From Parelaphostrongylus tenuis (lineage: Eukaryota > Nematoda > Chromadorea > Rhabditida > Metastrongylidae), in the NCBI GenBank assembly GCA_019055375.1, contig JAHQIW010006084.1:41837-105836 (forward strand): a stretch of DNA of 64,000 nt, read 5' to 3'. Numbering within the stretch: position 1 is the first letter of the stretch; each line of letters begins with the position of its first letter. The notes beneath the pieces were generated by a model, which saw only the letters and a list, made by a program, of their open reading frames with translations, searched no databases and was not told the origin of the DNA. This document shows, piece by piece, positions 33,054 to 64,000 of this stretch. The translations under genes and the position numbers were made by a program.

Positions 33054-33220
33054 AAAGCCACTCTCTGACACCGGCAGCCTCATAAAGCTCTCGAAACTGA
33101 CATTAATTGACTCGAACAAACACTGCCTTGGTCGATACGGTAATAGTGCTACTAAAATCACACCGCATATCCAGGCCGACTATTGGACATCAGAATACTA
33201 GGCGTTCTGGAAAAAATGAA

Positions 33221-33292
33221 GCACACGACCGGACTCGAACCGGCAATTTTCTGATTCAAAATCGGACGCTTTATCCATTAGGCCATGCGAGC
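33221..33292 (-). pseudogene. tRNA-like gene, Arg-type body with TTG anticodon loop
   Basis: 72 bases; the minus strand starts GCTCGCATGGCCTAATGGAT. The anticodon loop is TTTTGAA (anticodon TTG), and the T arm is GCCGG-TTCGAGT-CCGGT, well paired. The body matches nematode tRNA-Arg(TCT), and the homologous unit at 43,518 still has TCT. Acceptor and D-stem mismatches suggest a pseudogene inside a larger repeat. Confidence 0.6.
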
Positions 33293-33664
33293 TACGCTAC
33301 TAGGCGATAGTTTTTTTTTTGGTTATCAATACTAACGCATCTAAACAAGTAGAATTGCATAAGATGTTCAGTTAGTAAAGGAAACCAAGTTCCACGTGAT
33401 AACGTTAGATTCTTTTCAGGCTATAAGATGAACTGTGATCCAGACATGGAGGAAACAAATGTTTCGTGCATTCTGAGACAGTAAAATTAATCAAATACCA
33501 CGCCGATATTTTTTTCAAGTCCAAGAGAAAGCATCCAGCTGGCAGAAGCTTTCAGAAGCGTTAGCAAACTACATTAGCTTCTTCAGCTTCGTAATTAACA
33601 CGCTTTCACTTGATGAATGTCAGTCTTTATTGCCACTATACTACTGTACAGAAACTTTTTTTTG

Positions 33665-34990: not shown

Positions 34991-35524
34991 AGAACGACCT
35001 GATAGCTCATATCGGTTACTTAGGGTAAGGCGTGTTTGAGTTAGTGATCCTAATCAGACATTGTCATTAACAAGCAGCGATCGAAACCAATTTGCATCAA
35101 TTGATATTGTCAGCCAGGGCTTCGTAGTACTATCCCATCGTGAGTTTCCGCTGCTGGTTCTGCCATCTGTGGAATGCATAAGGGTTTTGAAATTCTACAG
35201 TCCTATTAGCAATCCCACCATAACTAGCCCACACTAAATTTGTTGAGTGCGATTGAAACCACTGAAATTTATAAACTTCCCTACAAGACGATTTTCGAGG
35301 ACTCAAAGCACATACCGATTTCATTCGATTGGTTTAGAGCCAATGTTTCCAATAGGAAAACGAATGAACAAATGGAGCTTTTACAGAATTACATGACGAT
35401 GTTCATTGATATAAAGATTATGCTTGAATATGCTTCTACTATGTCGAAAATCTTGAAAACTTGATCAACTAACAAAATATATCCTTTCATTATTATTCGA
35501 GCCAACGTGTCATGTGGTCTGGTA

Positions 35525-35587
35525 AGGCTCTTGTACAGCCCGAGACACGTGTTTCGTCCTTACAGACTCATCAGCCGGGCAGAACCC
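35525..35587 (-). ncRNA. hammerhead ribozyme, left arm
   Basis: Minus strand. Core CTGATGA, stem II GTC-TGTAAG-GAC, then GAAA. A minimal stem III follows (A-U and C-G pairs closed by ACGT), then cleavage triplet GTC with the predicted cut between 35544 and 35543. Stem I is GCCCGG with TCGGGC (six pairs), then an internal loop, then GGGTTC with GAGCCT (five of six pairs). The asymmetric stem I loop (T against TGTACAA) facing the stem II loop is what natural fast hammerheads use for tertiary contact. Confidence 0.88.
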
Positions 35588-35759
35588 GTCGTCTGTCGAT
35601 CGTTTTATATACCAGCCAGCTAGCAATCGAGTGCGAAAACACTCTGTGTTAGGTGAAAATTTCGCTTGACATAGAGTGTAAAACGTACGTCGTCGACAAC
35701 TCTCTATAAGGAGTGTAACGCTCCCGAGAGAACTGACTGTAAAAAGATCGACAGACGAC

Positions 35760-35822
35760 GGGTTCTGCCCGGCTGATGAGTCTGTAAGGACGAAACACGT
35801 GTCTCGGGCTGTACAAGAGCCC
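35760..35822 (+). ncRNA. hammerhead ribozyme, right arm
   Basis: Plus strand. Outer stem I is GGGTTC (35760-35765) with GAGCCC (35817-35822). Inner stem I is GCCCGG (35767-35772) with TCGGGC (35804-35809). CTGATGA is at 35773-35779, stem II at 35780-35791, GAAA at 35792-35795, and triplet GTC at 35801-35803, with the predicted cut after 35803. All core nucleotides are present and all 12 stem I pairs form (two are G-U). This is the best-conserved copy in the window. Confidence 0.92.
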
Positions 35823-36884
35823 TTACCAGACCACATGACATGTTGGCTCAAATAATAATGAAAGGATCTATTGAAATTTGAGCGTGGTCTTAATAAAGCA
35901 CTCGAAGGAAAGGTATAACAAAATATAGTCAATTTTGTAGTAAAAGCTCTGCCTCCAGAGAAAGTTAATATTGAAGGGATACCGTAAGTCGTCTATGCGA
36001 TAGATGTGACTAAGTAAAGTTTCTTATATACCTCTCATGTTTTCAGCTATATAGTTTCGTTTCGCTTTCTCAAAAAAGCAGTTTCGTCAAAAAGTTTAAC
36101 TGTGCTTACAATTTTCTCAGATGACAAAGCACATCCACTTGTCTGAATTAAATTTCTAAGAAACTGTACGAAACCTGAATCTTGATTTGGTATTCACAAA
36201 CTCCAATAACACCGCGAGAAAAATCGTGTTTTGCAAGACAAAAATCCGTTTGCTCAACCTTTTTGCGACCGCCGTGGACCTACCTCCTTCAAATCTTTAA
36301 CTTCCAACATAGCAACAGTGAACGATGTGCTCTACCTCCTCTACATCTCTTACTCGCAGCGTGAGAACACACTGAATACAGAGGAGGTGGAGCAGACCGT
36401 CCAGTGTTGTCACGCTAGGATTTAGAGAGTAGGTGGGGTCTACGATCCCCATAGAATTAACCCTCCGTGGACGTCTGCTGATTGTTTTCACAAGCGGAGC
36501 ACGATTTTCAAATTTCAACTACGTTTTTTATCTTTGTTTCCGAAAAATTGAGCTTTTTGTGATACTTTGATGCTGCATGATTTCCTCCACACGCATATAC
36601 TTGTGCTTAATTAGTTGCGCAAATTAATTATAAAATCAAGGCAAATGCAGTTTTAGAATGTGATCATAGATTTCAGTGAAAGACTACCACATACTATGTT
36701 CAGTGGTTTCATAGGTAGCAAAATCGTGGAAATATTGTCAAGAGAAGTGTTAAAACGGCTAAATTTTAAATAAAGCGACCATCGTAGAGACGGCCATTTC
36801 ATCGTGCTGGCAGAGTTTTCTCAAAGACAGGTCCTTCGATTGCTGTCGTAATAGTTCTACTCCATCACCAGTCAATGCAGAAAC

Positions 36885-37990: not shown

Positions 37991-38034
37991 GAATAAATAA
38001 GTAAAAATGTACATATTGTTCAAATATTGTGTAC

Positions 38035-38170
38035 ACATAATATCTACATACATATGTACACACAGGCATATACATGTATATATGTATATATATAATATAT
38101 ACATGCATGTATATATATGCATCTATATATGTATATATATATATACATATAGATATATATATATATATTT
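38035..38170. repeat. TATA/TACA microsatellite
   Basis: About 135 bases of TATATG and TACATA variants. Long open frames on both strands here, rich in Tyr, Ile and Cys, are products of the repeat, not genes. Confidence 0.85.
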
Positions 38171-38345
38171 GATGCTCGAAGTAAACGATCAAATTTCGCC
38201 AATATTCCAGTTTTGGGCTGTATTTCTCAGTCCTGGTCTGCTGTCTTCCTTTTCTGGTATTGCTCATAAAGCCGTTTTAAGGTCACCAATTCGAGCTGTT
38301 GGAGCGGTACTTCTTTCTGATCTTTCCACTAGTTATGGTTTTACA

Positions 38346-43184: not shown

Positions 43185-43835
43185 AACAAGCACTCTGAGT
43201 ATTCGAAACGGCCATTGGTCAGTGAGAATTCTAACACACCCAGAGGCCGACACTTGAAGGTGAGCATACTTCGCGTTCTCAAAAGCATGCACACGACTGT
43301 AATCCAGTTGCAAACTTCTAATAAAAAGGCAGACGCCTCATCCATAAAGCTGCACAAGTCACTCCGCTTACAACGACAATTTTGATGACACTTTAAAAAC
43401 TGACACTAATTGACTGGAACAAATACTCTGCTTCGTCAAGTTAGTGTGACTAAGATTACATCACTCTTCCAGGCTGACTATCGAACATTGTAATGCTACG
43501 CGTTTTTAAAAAAGCAAGCCCACGGCCGGGGTCGAACCGACAATCTTCTGATAAGAAGTCAGATGCCTTATCCATTAGTCCACGCTGGCTGTTGGATTGC
43601 ATTCTCACTTACTACTTTACTAATGCTGCGATATCAACATTAACACGTTCGAACGAGCACGCTGAGTGTTCAAAACTGTTACTGACCAATGAGAATTCTA
43701 ACATCCTCAGGAGCCGTCATTTGAACGTTGATGTACTGCGCGTACGCAACACTACGCACATGACAGAAATCGAATCGTAAACTTCCAGCTAAAAGTCAAA
43801 TGCCTTATTCATAAGGCTATGAAAAACAGAAGTAT
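43185..43835 (-). repeat. tRNA-Arg-derived tandem units
   Basis: A unit of about 470 bases occurs twice (43,185-43,360 and 43,655-43,835 are homologous: GAGTGTTC, AATGAGAATTCTAACA, ACTGCGCGT). Each ends in a worn tRNA-Arg-like stretch (GCCTTATTCATAAGGC or similar). Between them lies the best tRNA-like copy at 43,518-43,589. The segment 43,400-43,600 is homologous to 33,090-33,300. Confidence 0.6.
43518..43589 (-). tRNA. tRNA-Arg(TCT)-like gene, probably a pseudogene
   Basis: 72 bases on the minus strand. Acceptor GCCAGCG with CGTGGGC (one A-G mismatch). D arm GACT-AATGGATA-AGGC (one mismatch). Anticodon arm TCTGA-CTTCTTA-TCAGA with anticodon TCT (Arg, AGA codons). T arm GTCGG-TTCGACC-CCGGC (fully paired with one G-T). 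The two stem defects and its location in a repeat make activity doubtful. Confidence 0.55.
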
Positions 43836-48222: not shown

Positions 48223-48739
48223 TCCTAACAGAATCAACCCTCTGCTAACGGCCGCTGATCGATTTTCCCAAGCAACGGGCGATTTTGACAATCCAGCGAG
48301 ATTTTTATCTTTATTTCAGAAAAGACTGAGTTTTTGTGATACTCTGATGCGTCATAATTTTCTCTACAGGCATATACCTGGGATTAACTAGCTACGCAAA
48401 CTACCTATTGAACGAGGACTAGTGCAGGCCTGCACCCGCACCTTGTCATAAATTTCAGTGAAAGGCTACCACAGGCTTATACTCACTGACTTGACAGACA
48501 GTAAAAATCGTGAAAATAATGTCAAAAGACGTGTAGAATAGACAATATTTTGAAAAAGTAAACATTTGTTGTGACGGCCATTTCATCCTCCTGCCATACT
48601 TTTCTCAAAGACAGGTCTTTCAGATGTTGCCGTAATAATTCTACTCCCTCACTAGTGAATGCGGAAACTAAAACAAATTCCATATCGCCGAACTAGAGTG
48701 CGGCATTTGAGTATAGACAAAAATGTATGCAGGTAAACG

Positions 48740-48880
48740 TCTATGCATAGATATACGTATATATATATGCATATATATCATGCACATATACATGTATGTA
48801 TATATATATGTATATGTATATGCACATGCTTGTGCATATAAATACATGTACAAATATATATGTATATATAAAAGAATAAA
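48740..48880. repeat. TATATG microsatellite
   Basis: About 140 bases of TATATG and CATATA variants adjoining the tail of the inverted SINE A at 48,885. Confidence 0.8.
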
Positions 48881-52520: not shown

Positions 52521-52589
52521 TTACAGCAGTAGAGAACAGTACATGACAACACGTAAGTCAACGTGTCCCCACCTAAAACTAAGCCATGC

Positions 52590-52760
52590 ATATACTGTAC
52601 ATACCTATATATCTATGTATACACATACACGTATACATATACACATATATACATACATTATACACATATAAACGTATACATATGTATACACACATGCACA
52701 TGTACACATGTGTCAAGTGCACACACGTATGTGTATGCATATGCATGCATGTATTTGTAT
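52590..52760. repeat. ACATAT/GTATAC microsatellite
   Basis: About 170 bases of six-base-like alternating purine-pyrimidine repeats (TACATA, CACATG). Overlapping open frames on both strands are artefacts of this. Confidence 0.85.
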
Positions 52761-52786
52761 GATATACTCCCAATTGGTTTATCTTC

Positions 52787-53115
52787 TCAAATGGGAGGTG
52801 TTCCGGGTGTCGAACTGCGGAGTACAGCGGGGGTTCAATCCCCTTCCCCCTAGGGTTACCCAAGCCAAAAAGGAGTCAAACATTTTCACCGGAAAGCCCA
52901 GCCAGGAGTAAACCGTATCAAAAAAGATCGCTGTCTTCGTAGCTACTAGTCGTATGGTGGTGATCTCCCTCTGATCCACAAGAGTTGGTGACTTCCCCGA
53001 TGTAATCCACGTGAGGAATCCCCAGTTAAGTTTAACTCTGGACTTCAGGGAACGAAACAGTTAAACCAGCACAGTTCCTGTGCTGGGCCCGTACAAATCG
53101 TGAAAACGGACCGTC
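52787..53115 (+). repeat. SINE C copy 1
   Basis: Head GGGAGGTGTTCCGGGTGTCG, B box GGGGTTCAATCCCC, body including GGTGATCTCCCTCTGATCCA and AACGGACCGTCCGCATGTCC, tail running into a TATATG microsatellite. The second copy is at 53,690-54,035. Confidence 0.75.
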
Positions 53116-53119
53116 CGCA

Positions 53120-53240
53120 TGTCCAGGTATATGTGTATATGCACGTATATATATGTGCATAGGTACATGTATATGTATATATCTGTATACACATGTATAA
53201 ATACATGTATATATATATATACATGTGTACATACGCGTTG
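53120..53240. repeat. microsatellite between SINE C and inverted SINE A
   Basis: About 120 bases of TATATG, GTACAT and similar units; it links two SINE tails. Confidence 0.8.
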
Positions 53241-53284
53241 TATGCTTGCGTACACGTATACACCATAGATGTATGAATGATACA

Positions 53285-58769: not shown

Positions 58770-59330
58770 TCACCTGTAGTCCCGTTGATCGTCGAATGAC
58801 TCGAGCGGGTACCAGCAACACTTCCATTTTTCCCTTTCGCGTGCAAGAGTAGCCCAGTGGGTCCTCCTCGTTCTGGGGTTTCGCTGAGCATCATATCTTT
58901 CTTTTATCGCTTTCGTGAAGGAATCGGACCAACGGGTCAGTGATCTTCCTTTGGAGCGCTTAACGTCCCGAGGAATCCAGTCGGTAACGGCTCTCGTATA
59001 TCGGTTGTCGTTGAAGCGCATCACGTGTCCGGCCCACCTTATTTTCGATATCATGGCATGTAGAACGGCGTCTCTGATTTTCGATCGTTGACGTAGGTCG
59101 GAACTTCGGATCCTTTCTCTTATTTGCAAGATACGGGATACTCCTAGCATCGACCTTTCGACTGCGCGTTCGATAACGCTCAAGTGATCTTTCATCCTGC
59201 TTACGTAGCGACCAGGTTTCTGCTGCATACGTTAGGGCAGGGATAATTGTCGAGTCGAAAAGGTGGGCACGGAGTCGGATGTTCTTTTTCCTCTTCACTA
59301 CATCTTCGATGCTCTTAAACGTTCCCAAGC
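58770..59330 (-). pseudogene. RTE polyprotein C-terminal region
   Basis: Two overlapping frames (FKSIEDVVKRKKNIRLRAHL, then after a one-base shift ERIRSSDLRQRSKIRDAVLH and RWAGHVMRFNDNRYTRAV) to the stop at 58,770. One frameshift lies near 59,160-59,230. The region is conserved in family members but its function is not established. Confidence 0.85.
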
Positions 59331-59591
59331 CGCTCGTTTCCTACTGCTCAACTCTGGAGCTAGGTCGTTCATCATGTTGATTTCACGACCTAGGTAGACG
59401 TAACTGGAGCATTCGGAGATTGTCGTTCCGTTGAGCGTGAATGGGCATTGGGAACCCATCCGTGCCTCATGAACATCGTTTTCGTTAGATTTAGTTGGAG
59501 ACCAATCTTTCCACAGGCGTTATCGACATCGGTCAACATTCGTTCCGCTTGACTGATGTTTGGTGTTATGAGAACGATATCTTAGATGGTT

Positions 59592-60660
59592 TTATTGTCG
59601 ACCGTCAATTTTCATTCTCATATCGTCCCATTCTAATGTTCGCATGACGCTTTGTAGGGTTGCAGTGAATAGTTTTGGCGAAATTGTATCGCCTTGTCGA
59701 ACACCTCTTCTTACGTCAATGGTGATATTGTTGTAGAATGGAGATATTTTGGTCGTGAAATCTTTATAAAGCTCACGAAGTATCATTATGTACCGAGTAG
59801 GGACGCCCTGGTTATCCAGAGCCTCTATAACCGCTTCTGTTTCCACTGAATCGAAGGCTTTCTTCAGATCGATGAAAGTGAGACAGAGTGGTTGTTTGTA
59901 CTTTCGTGGAACTTCAATGAGTCTTGTAATCGTGTGGATGTGGTCTATGGTACTAAATCCTTTTCGGAACCCTGCTTGTTCGCATGGCTGTCCTTCGTCC
60001 AGTGTTCTGTCAATCCTGTTTAGGATGACTCGAGTAAAGAGTTTATAGACAACGGACAGCAAGCAGATTGGGCGATAATTGCCTATGTCGTGAAGGTCTT
60101 CCTTTTTGAACAACAATACGGTCTTGCTGGTTTTCCATTGAATAGGGACCTTGCATTCTGACAGGTAGCGAGTGAAGAGCCGAGCCACGGTGTTGATGAG
60201 AACTGGCGGCAGGTTCTTCAGGTGTTCTGGTCTAATCCTGTCTGGACCGGGTGTTGTTCTGTTCTTCACCGACGATTAGCATGTCGATTTCGAAGGGGAC
60301 CGTGGAACGACATATTCGTCCTCTTTCAATTTATATGACGGTAAGAGGACATGGCTAGCGAAGAGATCCGAGTAGTATTGGTGGATGATTTTCTCCATAG
60401 CCCTTCTCGAAGCTGTAAGTGTCCCGTCAGGGTATCGGAGTGCAATCATCTTGGTCTTATAGTTGGCGAAGCCTCGCTGGGCTTTGCAATGCTCTTCCCA
60501 GCTTCTGCAGCTTCTGCCATAACTGCTGCTCTTCTCTCTTTGAGGTCTTCTTTTATCGCTTCTCTGCAGCGTTTCGCAAGTTCGGACGTAAGGTTTCGGT
60601 TGCCTGCAGCTCGTGCGATTCCACGTTGACGTATCAGCTCGAGTGTCTGCGGAGACAAGC
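59592..60660 (-). pseudogene. RTE reverse transcriptase domain, catalytic box deleted
   Basis: Recognisable motifs in order are RTTPGPDRIRPEHLK (RT1), NYRPICLLSVVYKLFTRVI (RT2), GFRKGFSTIDHI (RT3), LTFIDLKKAFDSVE (RT4, first Asp), and RRGVRQGDTISPKLFTATL (RT5). The frame ends at DGRQ plus a stop, and the following bases skip the LRFADD-type motif: about 15 bases that should encode FADD are missing before the IVLITPN-equivalent segment. Upstream, 60,446-60,658 encodes the linker (LELIRQRGIARAAGNRNL). Without the paired Asp residues it cannot polymerise. Confidence 0.9.
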
Positions 60661-60825
60661 GTCTCTTCGTGACCTTAGGACTTCTCGGCTTTCATAGCGC
60701 TAACGTGAAGATGTTCAACGAGTCGTTCGTATTCTTCTCGATGTTGTCGACAACGGTATCTTCCAGAGAGCTGACTAATGACATGAAGACATCCCAGTTT
60801 ATGGTAATTCTGAGACTTCATTGTT

Positions 60826-61590
60826 TCAATTTACGGCTTTCTCTCCTCTCCTCGAAAAATGGAACGTTTCACAAAGGAGGCGATAGTCTGATCCCGTGTA
60901 GAACTTAGGAACAACAGCGACATCGGTCAGGCAAAATCTTCGATCTACTAAGATGTGATCTATTTCGTTATGGAACTCTCCATTGGGAGACTCCCACGTC
61001 TGTCGCTGAGAAAGAGGCTTTAGGAATTGAGAGTTACCATGGATGGTTTGGGTCGTCATGATAAACTCAGATTGCCTTTCACCCTGTTCATTCCATTCTA
61101 GTCCGTGGGTCCCTATGTGACATTCTTCAGACGTTCTTCTAGGTTCAATTCTTGCGTTAAAATCTCTAACAATGACCTTGAAGAATGTATGATCTTCTCT
61201 GAAGAATTTTTCGAGGTCCGTGTAAAACGCTTCGACTTCGTCTTCGTCATGGCTTGATGTTGGTGCGTAAGCAACAAAGATGGTCAAAGCCGGCATAGAA
61301 CCACATACATCGTTTCAACCGTAATCGTCCGATACGGGTTGTTAGTTGTTCGAACGAATCAATGCTCACGGTCAAATTCGATTTGAAGAGGACGCCAACG
61401 CCGCCGACACCTCTGCGATCGCATGTACCAAGGAACAGTTCTTCTCCAGTGTCATAAACAGCGTGAAAAGGATGGCGCCTTCTCGTCTCAGCCAGGCCAA
61501 TGACGTCGTACCTTATGCTTCTTGCTTGAATCAATGGATCTTCTACAGCGGATTCGTGAGCAAGGGTTCTTGCGTTGTAGGTTCAGATCG
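60826..61590 (-). pseudogene. RTE apurinic-type endonuclease domain
   Basis: Frames 61,534-61,247 and 61,296-60,826 overlap by a frameshift. Motifs: YNARTLAHESAVED (catalytic Asn), YDVIGLAETRRRHP (Glu), GVGGVGVLF, VRDFNARIEPRR (Asp, Asn; the Gly normally before DFN is Arg), NEIDHILVDRRF (Asp), and GSDYRLL where SDH is expected. The His-to-Tyr change removes the catalytic base, so target nicking would be lost. Confidence 0.9.
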
Positions 61591-62034: not shown

Positions 62035-63664
62035 CTAAGTTTATATCAGGCTTTCGTTTATTTCAATTAATTTAGAGTTGACATATGTGGGAAAAGTTGA
62101 AAAGTGGATAGTGGGGGAATTCTGAACAACTGTGTTTGAGTAAAGGGCTTGGATCATTCACATTCCACAAACTATTGGTCAGAAATATGTGTCGCCTGAA
62201 AACTATTCATTAGTTGTCCCTTATTCGCACTCAAGAACCGAGAACATGTATTTTGTTCTTTTTGTGGACATTTTGATAGTCATTTGATAGCTTAAATCTC
62301 GAGAATTTGAGCGGTGAATCATATTTCTGGAGTCTTTTATTTTGGCGCTGTGACAGAAAAATAAAATGCATTTCAGTTAGAAATTTTTGGCTGAGAACGC
62401 TTTTTCTCAAAAAAAGGATTTGGTAATTATTCGATGGCACAAATTTCGACGAATTTAATAGTGTTTTTGGTTATCCAAAAAAGAAACTTTTTGTTGCTCT
62501 GCAACGCTGAAATTGGTCCTGCAATTGCGGGGAGACTAAAACGTGAATTTGCTCCTTTATAGACGGCATAATCAATCTAGCTCTACTTCATTTGACCGAG
62601 GTAATCTCTGTTCTTCTGCAAAAGAACTCTGTTACAAGAAGCAATTATATATTTTTACTGAATGTAGTGGAATGAACTTTATCATTTCAAAATTGAATCT
62701 GCACACTTTGTCAACCAAGGATGTTTAATCATAGTTGATATATCGACCTTCCTCGAGAAAGCCTTGAGACGACTAAGAGCATTCGAAGTCATATGTGAAT
62801 GGAATAACGAGATTTATAATGAATAATAACTTGATGGAGCTGTCTCAACTCATCTGTGACAAAAGGAAGTACTATGAAAGGAGGATACCTCGCCAGACAA
62901 AGATCCCTAGCCAATGATGCAACAACTTTCGTTCCACGATTTCACCTTCCTCGAACAGTTTTTTGTGGACGCAAAAAAGATTCGAGAGAAACAGAAATTT
63001 GGTCAGCTTGAGAACGAACGTCAACAATAGGTATCCATAACAATCGTCTTTCTCCATGAGGCATCAGAAAACGGAACAAAGCACTGATCGATTTCGCCAA
63101 GGCATGTGTGGAATATGGGTCTTGCGCTGAACCTGTAGAGGAACGTTGATGATGGCTTATGGGAAAAAGAATCTATCTCCATTTCTTTCTTGTGCTTCCG
63201 CTATTTTCTCTGCATCATTTCTACCTTGGATTTCCGTTCGTATCAAGAAAAAACGAACTGAGCGCTACAGGTACTGGGATTCATTCGGTGAAAAAAGAAA
63301 CACACTGAAGGTAGATCAGTTAAGTGTTAACAGTACTACTGTATTCAATTAATGCTCTTTCTAGCGAACTCGGTACTTTCTGTCAGAAAAAGCAGCTTTT
63401 GATACACAATTCCGTATTTGCTTCTTCTCTAAACTAAACTAACATCCAAGGACAGATCTGAATTAAAACCCACGTATACCATGCGAAAATAATGGTAATT
63501 TTCAATCGTTCAAACAACGGACCCATTTACCGGTGAAATTAATTGATGAAGATCGAGATTATTATAATATACAGATTTCGCCAATGACAGACACGATCTC
63601 CTGCTGTGCAACTGTGAGATCTTGACACAAAGCTCCGAGATCTTGCTCTTGCAATTTTCCTCAA
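62035..63664. other. gene-free stretch
   Basis: No exon or repeat recognised. Minus- and plus-strand frames of 60-70 codons near 62,540-63,350 have no resemblance I can name. Confidence 0.4.
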
Positions 63665-64000
63665 ATGCCTTCATTATTATCTGAGCCAACTCGTCATGTG
63701 GTCTGGAAAGGGCTCCTGTACAGCCCCATACACGTGTTTCGTCCTATCAGACTCGTCAGTCGGGCAGAACCCGCCGTCTTCCGATCCTTTTATAGTCAGT
63801 TCTCTCTCGAAACCGTACGCTCCCTACAGAGAGCTATCAAAGACGAACGTTTTACACTCTATGTCAAGTGAAATTTTCAACCAATACGGAGATTGTACAC
63901 TCGATTCTTCTTTGACTGGTATTTTAAACTTCGATAGGTCACTGTAGAGAGAGTAGGTTCCCGAGAGAACTGACTATAAAAAGATCGAAAAACGGCGGGT
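63665..64000. mobile_element. second hammerhead foldback element, truncated by the window end
   Basis: Starts CTTCATTATTATCTGAGCCA, matching the left end of the element at 35,482. The arm with its ribozyme runs to about 63,795. The centre is longer and partly different (ACACTCTATGTCAAGTGAAA is shared). The opposite arm begins at about 63,975 (AAGATCGAAAAACGGCGGGT) and continues past the window. Confidence 0.85.
63710..63772 (-). ncRNA. hammerhead ribozyme, element 2
   Basis: Minus strand. CTGACGA core (position 7 is C, which the consensus allows), stem II GTC-TGATAG-GAC, GAAA, minimal stem III, and triplet GTA with the predicted cut between 63729 and 63728. Outer stem I is GGGTTC with GAGCCC (all six pair); inner stem I is GCCCGA with TGGGGC (five of six). 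Length and layout are identical to the 35,760 copy. Confidence 0.85.

Follow-up and report, generated by a model that had tools for sequence, protein, structure and literature searches.

A multicopy foldback element with predicted hammerhead ribozymes in the nematode Parelaphostrongylus tenuis combines retrozyme features with the insertion marks of Penelope-like elements

Animal retrozymes and Penelope-like elements (PLEs) are both known kinds of element. Animal non-LTR retrozymes have been described as repeats of 150-450 bp without coding sequence, carrying a type I hammerhead with a short stem III and a tetraloop; they occur as tandem copies, and their target duplications, when present, are longer than 4 bp (Cervera and de la Pena 2020, PMC7229834). 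In the main text of that paper no word beginning with "nematod" is found. The GIY-YIG PLEs are known to form head-to-head inverted copies with an optional tail of 30-40 bp, short duplications and a hammerhead (PMC3846280, PMC11167929); bdelloid Penelope copies, also head-to-head, have a 31-bp tail at one end and, in the examples given, duplications of 8-10 bp (PMC3846280). The hammerhead of PLEs has been reported as a minimal form without helix III (PMC7761336). In vitro, an anole PLE protein cleaves both strands of the target and extends them, reverse transcription starting inside the template, and the tail corresponds to the stretch between two reverse transcription start sites; in this system the hammerhead was dispensable for insertion and no read ended at the cut site (PMC11167929). 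Reviews consider PLEs and Terminons to be likely movers of animal retrozymes, or else regard LINEs or PLEs as possible movers, and the ground offered in the available text is co-occurrence (PMC7761336, PMC11722881). A literature search, outside of which most subscription papers fell, returned nothing on nematode or foldback retrozymes; within the same search we came across no published case of the combination reported here for a nematode, nor of insertion marks shared between a retrozyme and PLEs that would tie the former to a Penelope-like enzyme.

The sequence analysed, hereafter the window, is a stretch of 64,000 nt of a P. tenuis contig. It contains a foldback element and one further member of its family, with the following features:

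35470..35481, no strand: left target site duplication TAACAAAATATA, 12 bp (direct repeat)
35482..35915, no strand: whole foldback element, 434 bp
35482..35607, minus strand: left arm, a 5'-truncated antisense unit (unit position ~143 to ~270) with its 3' end outward and no tail
35538..35580, minus strand: predicted type I hammerhead, RF00163 (model R1 match 35518-35593; predicted cleavage 35544|35543)
35608..35739, plus strand: sense-oriented core separating the arms; the inversion junction lies at its left end
35609..35915, plus strand: full-length sense unit (unit positions 11-317 of 320)
35767..35809, plus strand: predicted type I hammerhead, RF00163 (model R1 match 35754-35830; predicted cleavage 35803|35804)
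35867..35915, plus strand: tail of about 49 nt at the right end, the other end being tail-less
35916..35927, no strand: right target site duplication TAACAAAATATA, 12 bp (direct repeat)
63652..64000, minus strand: second family copy, about 80% identical, with a partial inverted arm, ended by the contig end (hammerhead 63723-63765)

The inverted arms are 99% complementary over 82 nt (35526-35607 with 35740-35821) and 94% complementary over 52 nt (35476-35527 with 35821-35872). Since the left end at 35482 pairs with 35866, positions 35867-35915 form a right-end extension of about 49 nt, close to the 50 bases or so given in the preliminary description of this locus; the 12-bp target duplication proposed there is an exact TAACAAAATATA repeat on both sides of the element. 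The element is apparently non-coding, the one stop-to-stop frame of at least 120 aa over its 434 bp being a frame of 160 aa that crosses both arms, and it is not an autonomous PLE, as it lacks a frame with reverse transcriptase and GIY-YIG.

It had been proposed that each arm carries a hammerhead, on opposite strands, and the Rfam check returned one above-cut-off match per strand, each scoring 34.9 bits (E 5.5e-5), a narrow margin over the RF00163 gathering score of 34. The cleavage positions given earlier, 35804 on the plus strand and 35543 on the minus strand, are consistent with the placement of GTC in the sequence. In the predicted fold a 6-nt bulge, UGUACA, on the 3' side of stem I is followed by a second 6-bp helix; this distal stem I helix is backed by covariation, and an alternative distal stem I version covaries too. 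Stem III of the window element has 2 bp, counted in the alignment, and an ACGU loop. When the ribozyme alone was folded by energy, stems I and II were present and stem III was absent (z -0.04 against shuffles); because this fold is no better than that of shuffled sequences, the case for the ribozyme rests on the covariance model and on covariation; the arms are presumed to be catalytically active. For the plus-strand RNA of the whole element a single rod is predicted (-300.5 kcal/mol, z -33.6) in which both ribozymes are paired away, so that foldback copies probably yield little new RNA. Under this model the competition between self-cleavage and arm pairing that had been suggested for the element is plausible, and the foldback RNA could feed RNA interference.

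The search for further copies that the preliminary description had called for was performed on the source genome (481.5 Mb, 5105 contigs) and revealed a repeat family found across it, the foldback query giving at least 116 matches (40 scored of 4266 first-look candidates). Given these copies and the second one at 63652-64000, whose hammerhead scores 31.2 bits with RF00163 and is thus under the cut-off, the window element is more than a chance arrangement. The element set comprised 39 loci and the window, eight duplicate loci and a contig-end piece being left out. The basic unit is about 320 nt long and corresponds to window positions 35609-35918 together with a linker of 10 nt that separates direct copies; it contains one hammerhead, with the cut predicted at 205|206. 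Among the 40 elements longer than 250 nt, 36 are head-to-head foldbacks and four are single or direct-tandem units (L009, L010, L013 and L016), a foldback share that is inflated because the copies were found with the foldback as query. Two same-strand hammerheads 316-322 nt apart are present in 5 of the 40 sources (L017, L018, L019, L020 and L026) and absent at the window copy, a spacing expected from a tandem or circular template. The window unit is 98.1-98.7% identical to the four non-inverted copies and to the foldbacks L011, L012, L014 and L015, whose junctions are quite unlike that of the window; the remaining foldbacks are about 91-97% identical to it. The family resembles the animal non-LTR retrozymes (PMC7229834) in its type I hammerhead with a conserved core and a short stem III, its multicopy and apparently non-coding unit of about 320 nt, its direct tandems and its target duplications, which exceed 4 bp when present, and differs from them in that most of the copies found are one-tailed head-to-head foldbacks with a 12-bp duplication.

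Target duplications were scanned in 45 clusters, five of them fragments shorter than 250 nt, with matches below 86% identity dropped, except for the window, and the cut second copy of the window left out. Exact flanking repeats of at least 12 nt border 22 of the 40 elements (12 nt in 12, 13 in 6, 14 in 3 and 17 in 1), as compared with 1 of 197 mismatched flank pairs used as control, and no duplication of 8 nt or more was found in 12 of the 40 elements (16 of the 45 clusters). A tail of about 46 nt is present at exactly one end in 28 of the 36 foldbacks, the outer ends lying at unit positions 255-293 and 305-320; five foldbacks have tails at both ends and three others are otherwise truncated. 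Duplications of at least 12 nt accompany 17 of the 28 one-tailed foldbacks and none of the five two-tailed ones (Fisher p 0.018), and therefore a second route or a later rearrangement exists for the latter. The single and direct-tandem copies, which have no inversion, show the same tail end and are flanked by repeats of 12-17 bp (L009, L010 and L013) or 9 bp (L016).

Model R1 found 105 hammerheads in 260 kb. Over 78 arms the hammerhead core is conserved, and the most variable positions are N7 (T in 69, C in 8, A in 1) and the cleavage site H17 (C in 67, A in 6, T in 3, a gap in 2 and G in none), positions at which the hammerhead is known to tolerate change; the core changes are not all independent, because they partly track subfamilies. 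In the covariation alignment, made of 48 of the 85 distinct sequences, partly picked by similarity and with distant subfamilies included, 92.1% of the stem cells are paired, as against 18-53% when the stem alignments are slid, and the covariation score of 0.218 exceeds that of shuffled alignments (0.138, sd 0.009), none of 500 shuffles reaching it. Random drift of the stems and core across copies had been raised as an observation that would speak against the proposal; the conserved core and covarying stems found argue against such drift and, as far as sequence comparison can tell, for a ribozyme under selection. Viral contigs scanned with the ribozyme pattern gave no match.

In the set of 36 foldbacks the position of the inner junction on the unit shifts from copy to copy. 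When oriented by the tail no two junctions are identical, two pairs lying within 3 nt of each other (L019/L034 and L040/L043); if orientation is ignored, the number of pairs this close is eight, and one of them consists of the window and L018. As no two of the 36 inner junctions coincide, the foldbacks look made anew at insertion, and it is probably insertion that generates the foldback, the replicating unit being something else; with one ribozyme per strand, a single foldback would be unable to release an RNA of unit length. Apart from L014 at -77, tail-side inner ends fall between -19 and 166, and the sum of the inner coordinates (inverted inner end plus sense inner start) falls at 138-167 (mod 320) in 33 of the 36 foldbacks, the exceptions being L011, L012 and L015. 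This constant sum points to joining along one pairing axis, with the caveat that the foldback query may favour copies with arms of equal length. Core self-complementarity as the cause of the constant sum appears weak, since globally it is not above that of shuffles (z 0.7) and, when gapped self-complementarity is scored for 160 axes, the one at sum 152 shares third place. Minor and major arms differ in composition at p<0.01 in 1 of 125 columns, at the arm's end. When each minor arm was compared with its own major arm and with other elements, the best match was usually a near-consensus arm of another element, an outcome that fits one template as well as two.

A search of the same genome with PF01541 (GIY-YIG) gave at least 150 matches above the cut-off (150 scored of 1723 candidates), in frames of up to 902 aa, a number of them arranged as head-to-head pairs. 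These include the following family:

L056:1803-4481, plus strand, and L071-L090: Penelope-like family, head-to-head pairs with one tail each

L056 has an 893-aa open frame with RVT_1 (1.1e-11) and GIY-YIG (2.4e-7); among the best 120 of 124 hits to its residues 300-893 are relatives in Ancylostoma, Necator, Haemonchus and other nematodes, several of which carry RVT_1, PF26215 and GIY-YIG. In all 11 head-to-head pairs chosen from this family the tail is at exactly one outer end, and target duplications are 12-13 nt in eight of them and 8, 8 and 10 nt in the others, the maximum among 110 mismatched control pairs being 11. The 3' UTR has a minimal hammerhead-like motif, read by eye, with CTGAAGA...GAAACGTC at the ends. 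The retrozyme-like element and this PLE family thus agree in three respects: the length of the target duplication, the asymmetry of a single tail and the head-to-head layout of the copies. The element is like the PLEs described in PMC3846280 and PMC11167929 in its head-to-head copies, single tail of about 30-50 nt, short target duplications and hammerhead; it is unlike them in that the window element has no reverse transcriptase or endonuclease and keeps a 2-bp stem III in a fuller type I hammerhead. The initial view of a minimal non-autonomous Penelope-like or retrozyme-like element is borne out by the unit of about 320 nt with its 12-bp duplications, single tail and head-to-head copies, and this class gains from the presence in the same genome of an autonomous-looking PLE family with the same three insertion marks. 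Two results count against a Penelope helper: the PLE and element tails are weakly alike (local alignment, shuffle p 0.012), and BLAST of the unit against L056 gave nothing below E 0.97.

It is likely, in our assessment, that the family is a non-autonomous, retrozyme-like nematode retroelement whose insertion relies on Penelope-like machinery, with cDNA primed on both strands. The replicating form would be an RNA one unit (about 320 nt) long, which the hammerhead frees from tandem copies and which is probably circular, and the PLEs of the same genome may supply the reverse transcriptase and the GIY-YIG endonuclease for insertion. A staggered target cut would produce the 12-bp duplication, reverse transcription would be primed from both cut strands at two template start sites about 46 nt apart, and the two antisense cDNAs would join at their 5'-truncated ends; the product would be a head-to-head foldback with a tail at one end, which is the structure seen in the window. 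Direct copies running past one unit may derive from tandem or circular templates. The dispensability of the hammerhead in the anole system and the lack of reads ending at its cut site there (PMC11167929) count against this explanation, as do the two-tailed foldbacks and the elements with no duplication of 8 nt or more.

Other routes to the same structure have to be weighed against joining of two cDNAs. A retrozyme may form its foldback by snap-back, the antisense cDNA folding in the core and priming its own second strand, which would explain why the inner-coordinate sums stay constant in 33 of 36 foldbacks despite a variable tail-side inner end, as one pairing axis predicts, and agrees with the tied third rank of the axis at sum 152; self-priming has also been proposed for the bdelloid Penelope elements, there with an antisense template (PMC3846280). 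Copying of this kind should reach the tail at both ends, however, whereas 28 of the 36 foldbacks have it at one end only; the core is globally no more self-complementary than shuffles, and annealing of two cDNAs on the same axis gives equal sums, which the foldback query may in addition favour through equal lengths. We consider snap-back possible but doubtful. That a single master foldback was transcribed, copied whole and is the ancestor of all the others is improbable: the length is fairly constant (18 of 25 two-part copies measure 425-456 nt) and a few junctions are near to each other (the two pairs within 3 nt), but no junction is shared among 36, the minor and major arms differ, as noted, in a single column at the arm's end, and the copies nearest to the window unit are four without inversion and four foldbacks whose junctions are unlike its own.

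The mover may likewise be of another kind. Broken pieces of an RTE LINE lie in the window at 58770-61314 on the minus strand (58.7-61.3 kb), about 2.3 kb from the second family copy, and the reverse transcriptase piece at 59592-60275 is closest to Angiostrongylus cantonensis (87%), with Necator, Nippostrongylus and Ancylostoma proteins also near among the best 120 of 2124 hits, matches that point to a strongylid nematode related to the lungworms. This proximity would suit a retrozyme moved by RTE machinery in place of Penelope-like enzymes; one-tailed head-to-head copies with 12-bp duplications are nevertheless the marks measured on the PLE copies of this genome, and an RTE mover seems unlikely. 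Foldback DNA transposons and MITEs are small elements with long inverted repeats. The family resembles them in both respects, and its short target duplication would also fit a transposase recognising terminal inverted repeats, but its ends are asymmetric, with one tail in 28 of the 36 foldbacks, 4 of the 40 elements have the same tail end and flanking repeats (12-17 bp in three of them) without any inversion, as single or tandem copies, the junctions vary from copy to copy and the hammerhead is conserved. A DNA transposon of this type is very improbable.

A non-autonomous ribozyme element and a coding PLE family thus carry, in one genome, the same marks of insertion: a duplication of 12 bp, a single tail for each head-to-head pair, and truncated ends that meet on the inside. 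Insertion marks that match those of PLEs suggest how such ribozyme elements move, and since the marks are shared, the mover can be tested biochemically with an existing type of assay (PMC11167929); the distinct junctions may record how Penelope-type enzymes join two cDNAs. As a tentative generalization, for which we hold rather low confidence, Penelope-like enzymes might be the long-sought movers of animal retrozymes, the template being a ribozyme-cut and probably circular RNA of 320 nt primed on both strands at sites about 46 nt apart; each insertion would then create a new foldback by joining two antisense cDNAs on a common pairing axis, and the foldbacks, with the ribozyme buried in a rod, could act as sources of double-stranded RNA against the family.

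Some further observations were made on hammerheads outside the main set. The whole-genome Rfam hammerhead search returned 31 matches, 20 of them above the cut-off (74 scored of 119,811 candidates), a list that is a partial sample, because the window's own matches are absent from it. Seven of the 31, all above the cut-off, were chosen and represent a second hammerhead family (L049-L055). An inverted self-match contains or overlaps the hammerhead in L050-L054 and lies beside it in L055, and none was found in L049; L052 is tailed at one end and shows a 12-nt repeat, AATAATATCTTC. One tail of the second family, selected by eye, is similar to the first family's tail (0 of 1000 shuffles), and a tail motif like TTTGAGCGnGGTCT is common to both. 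Within the first family, the element at L011:2910-3870 is nested in a bigger inverted repeat (413 nt, 97.6%) for which no target duplication was found, and the outer parts of this repeat contain two further weak hammerheads of 29.2 bits each. In L013, L017, L024, L026, L031, L039 and others, young hammerhead copies have older ones (about 72-89% identical) no more than a few kb away, and the older ones have different stem II sequences, such as GATC/GATC.

As for the rest of the window, matches to miRNA models at 38031-38177, 48738-48872 and 52586-53263 are below the cut-off, appear by eye to be TA-rich simple repeats and are likely artefacts. Two tRNA genes were identified by ARAGORN and the Rfam tRNA model, a Gln (TTG) gene at 33218-33293 and an Arg (TCT) gene at 43516-43590.
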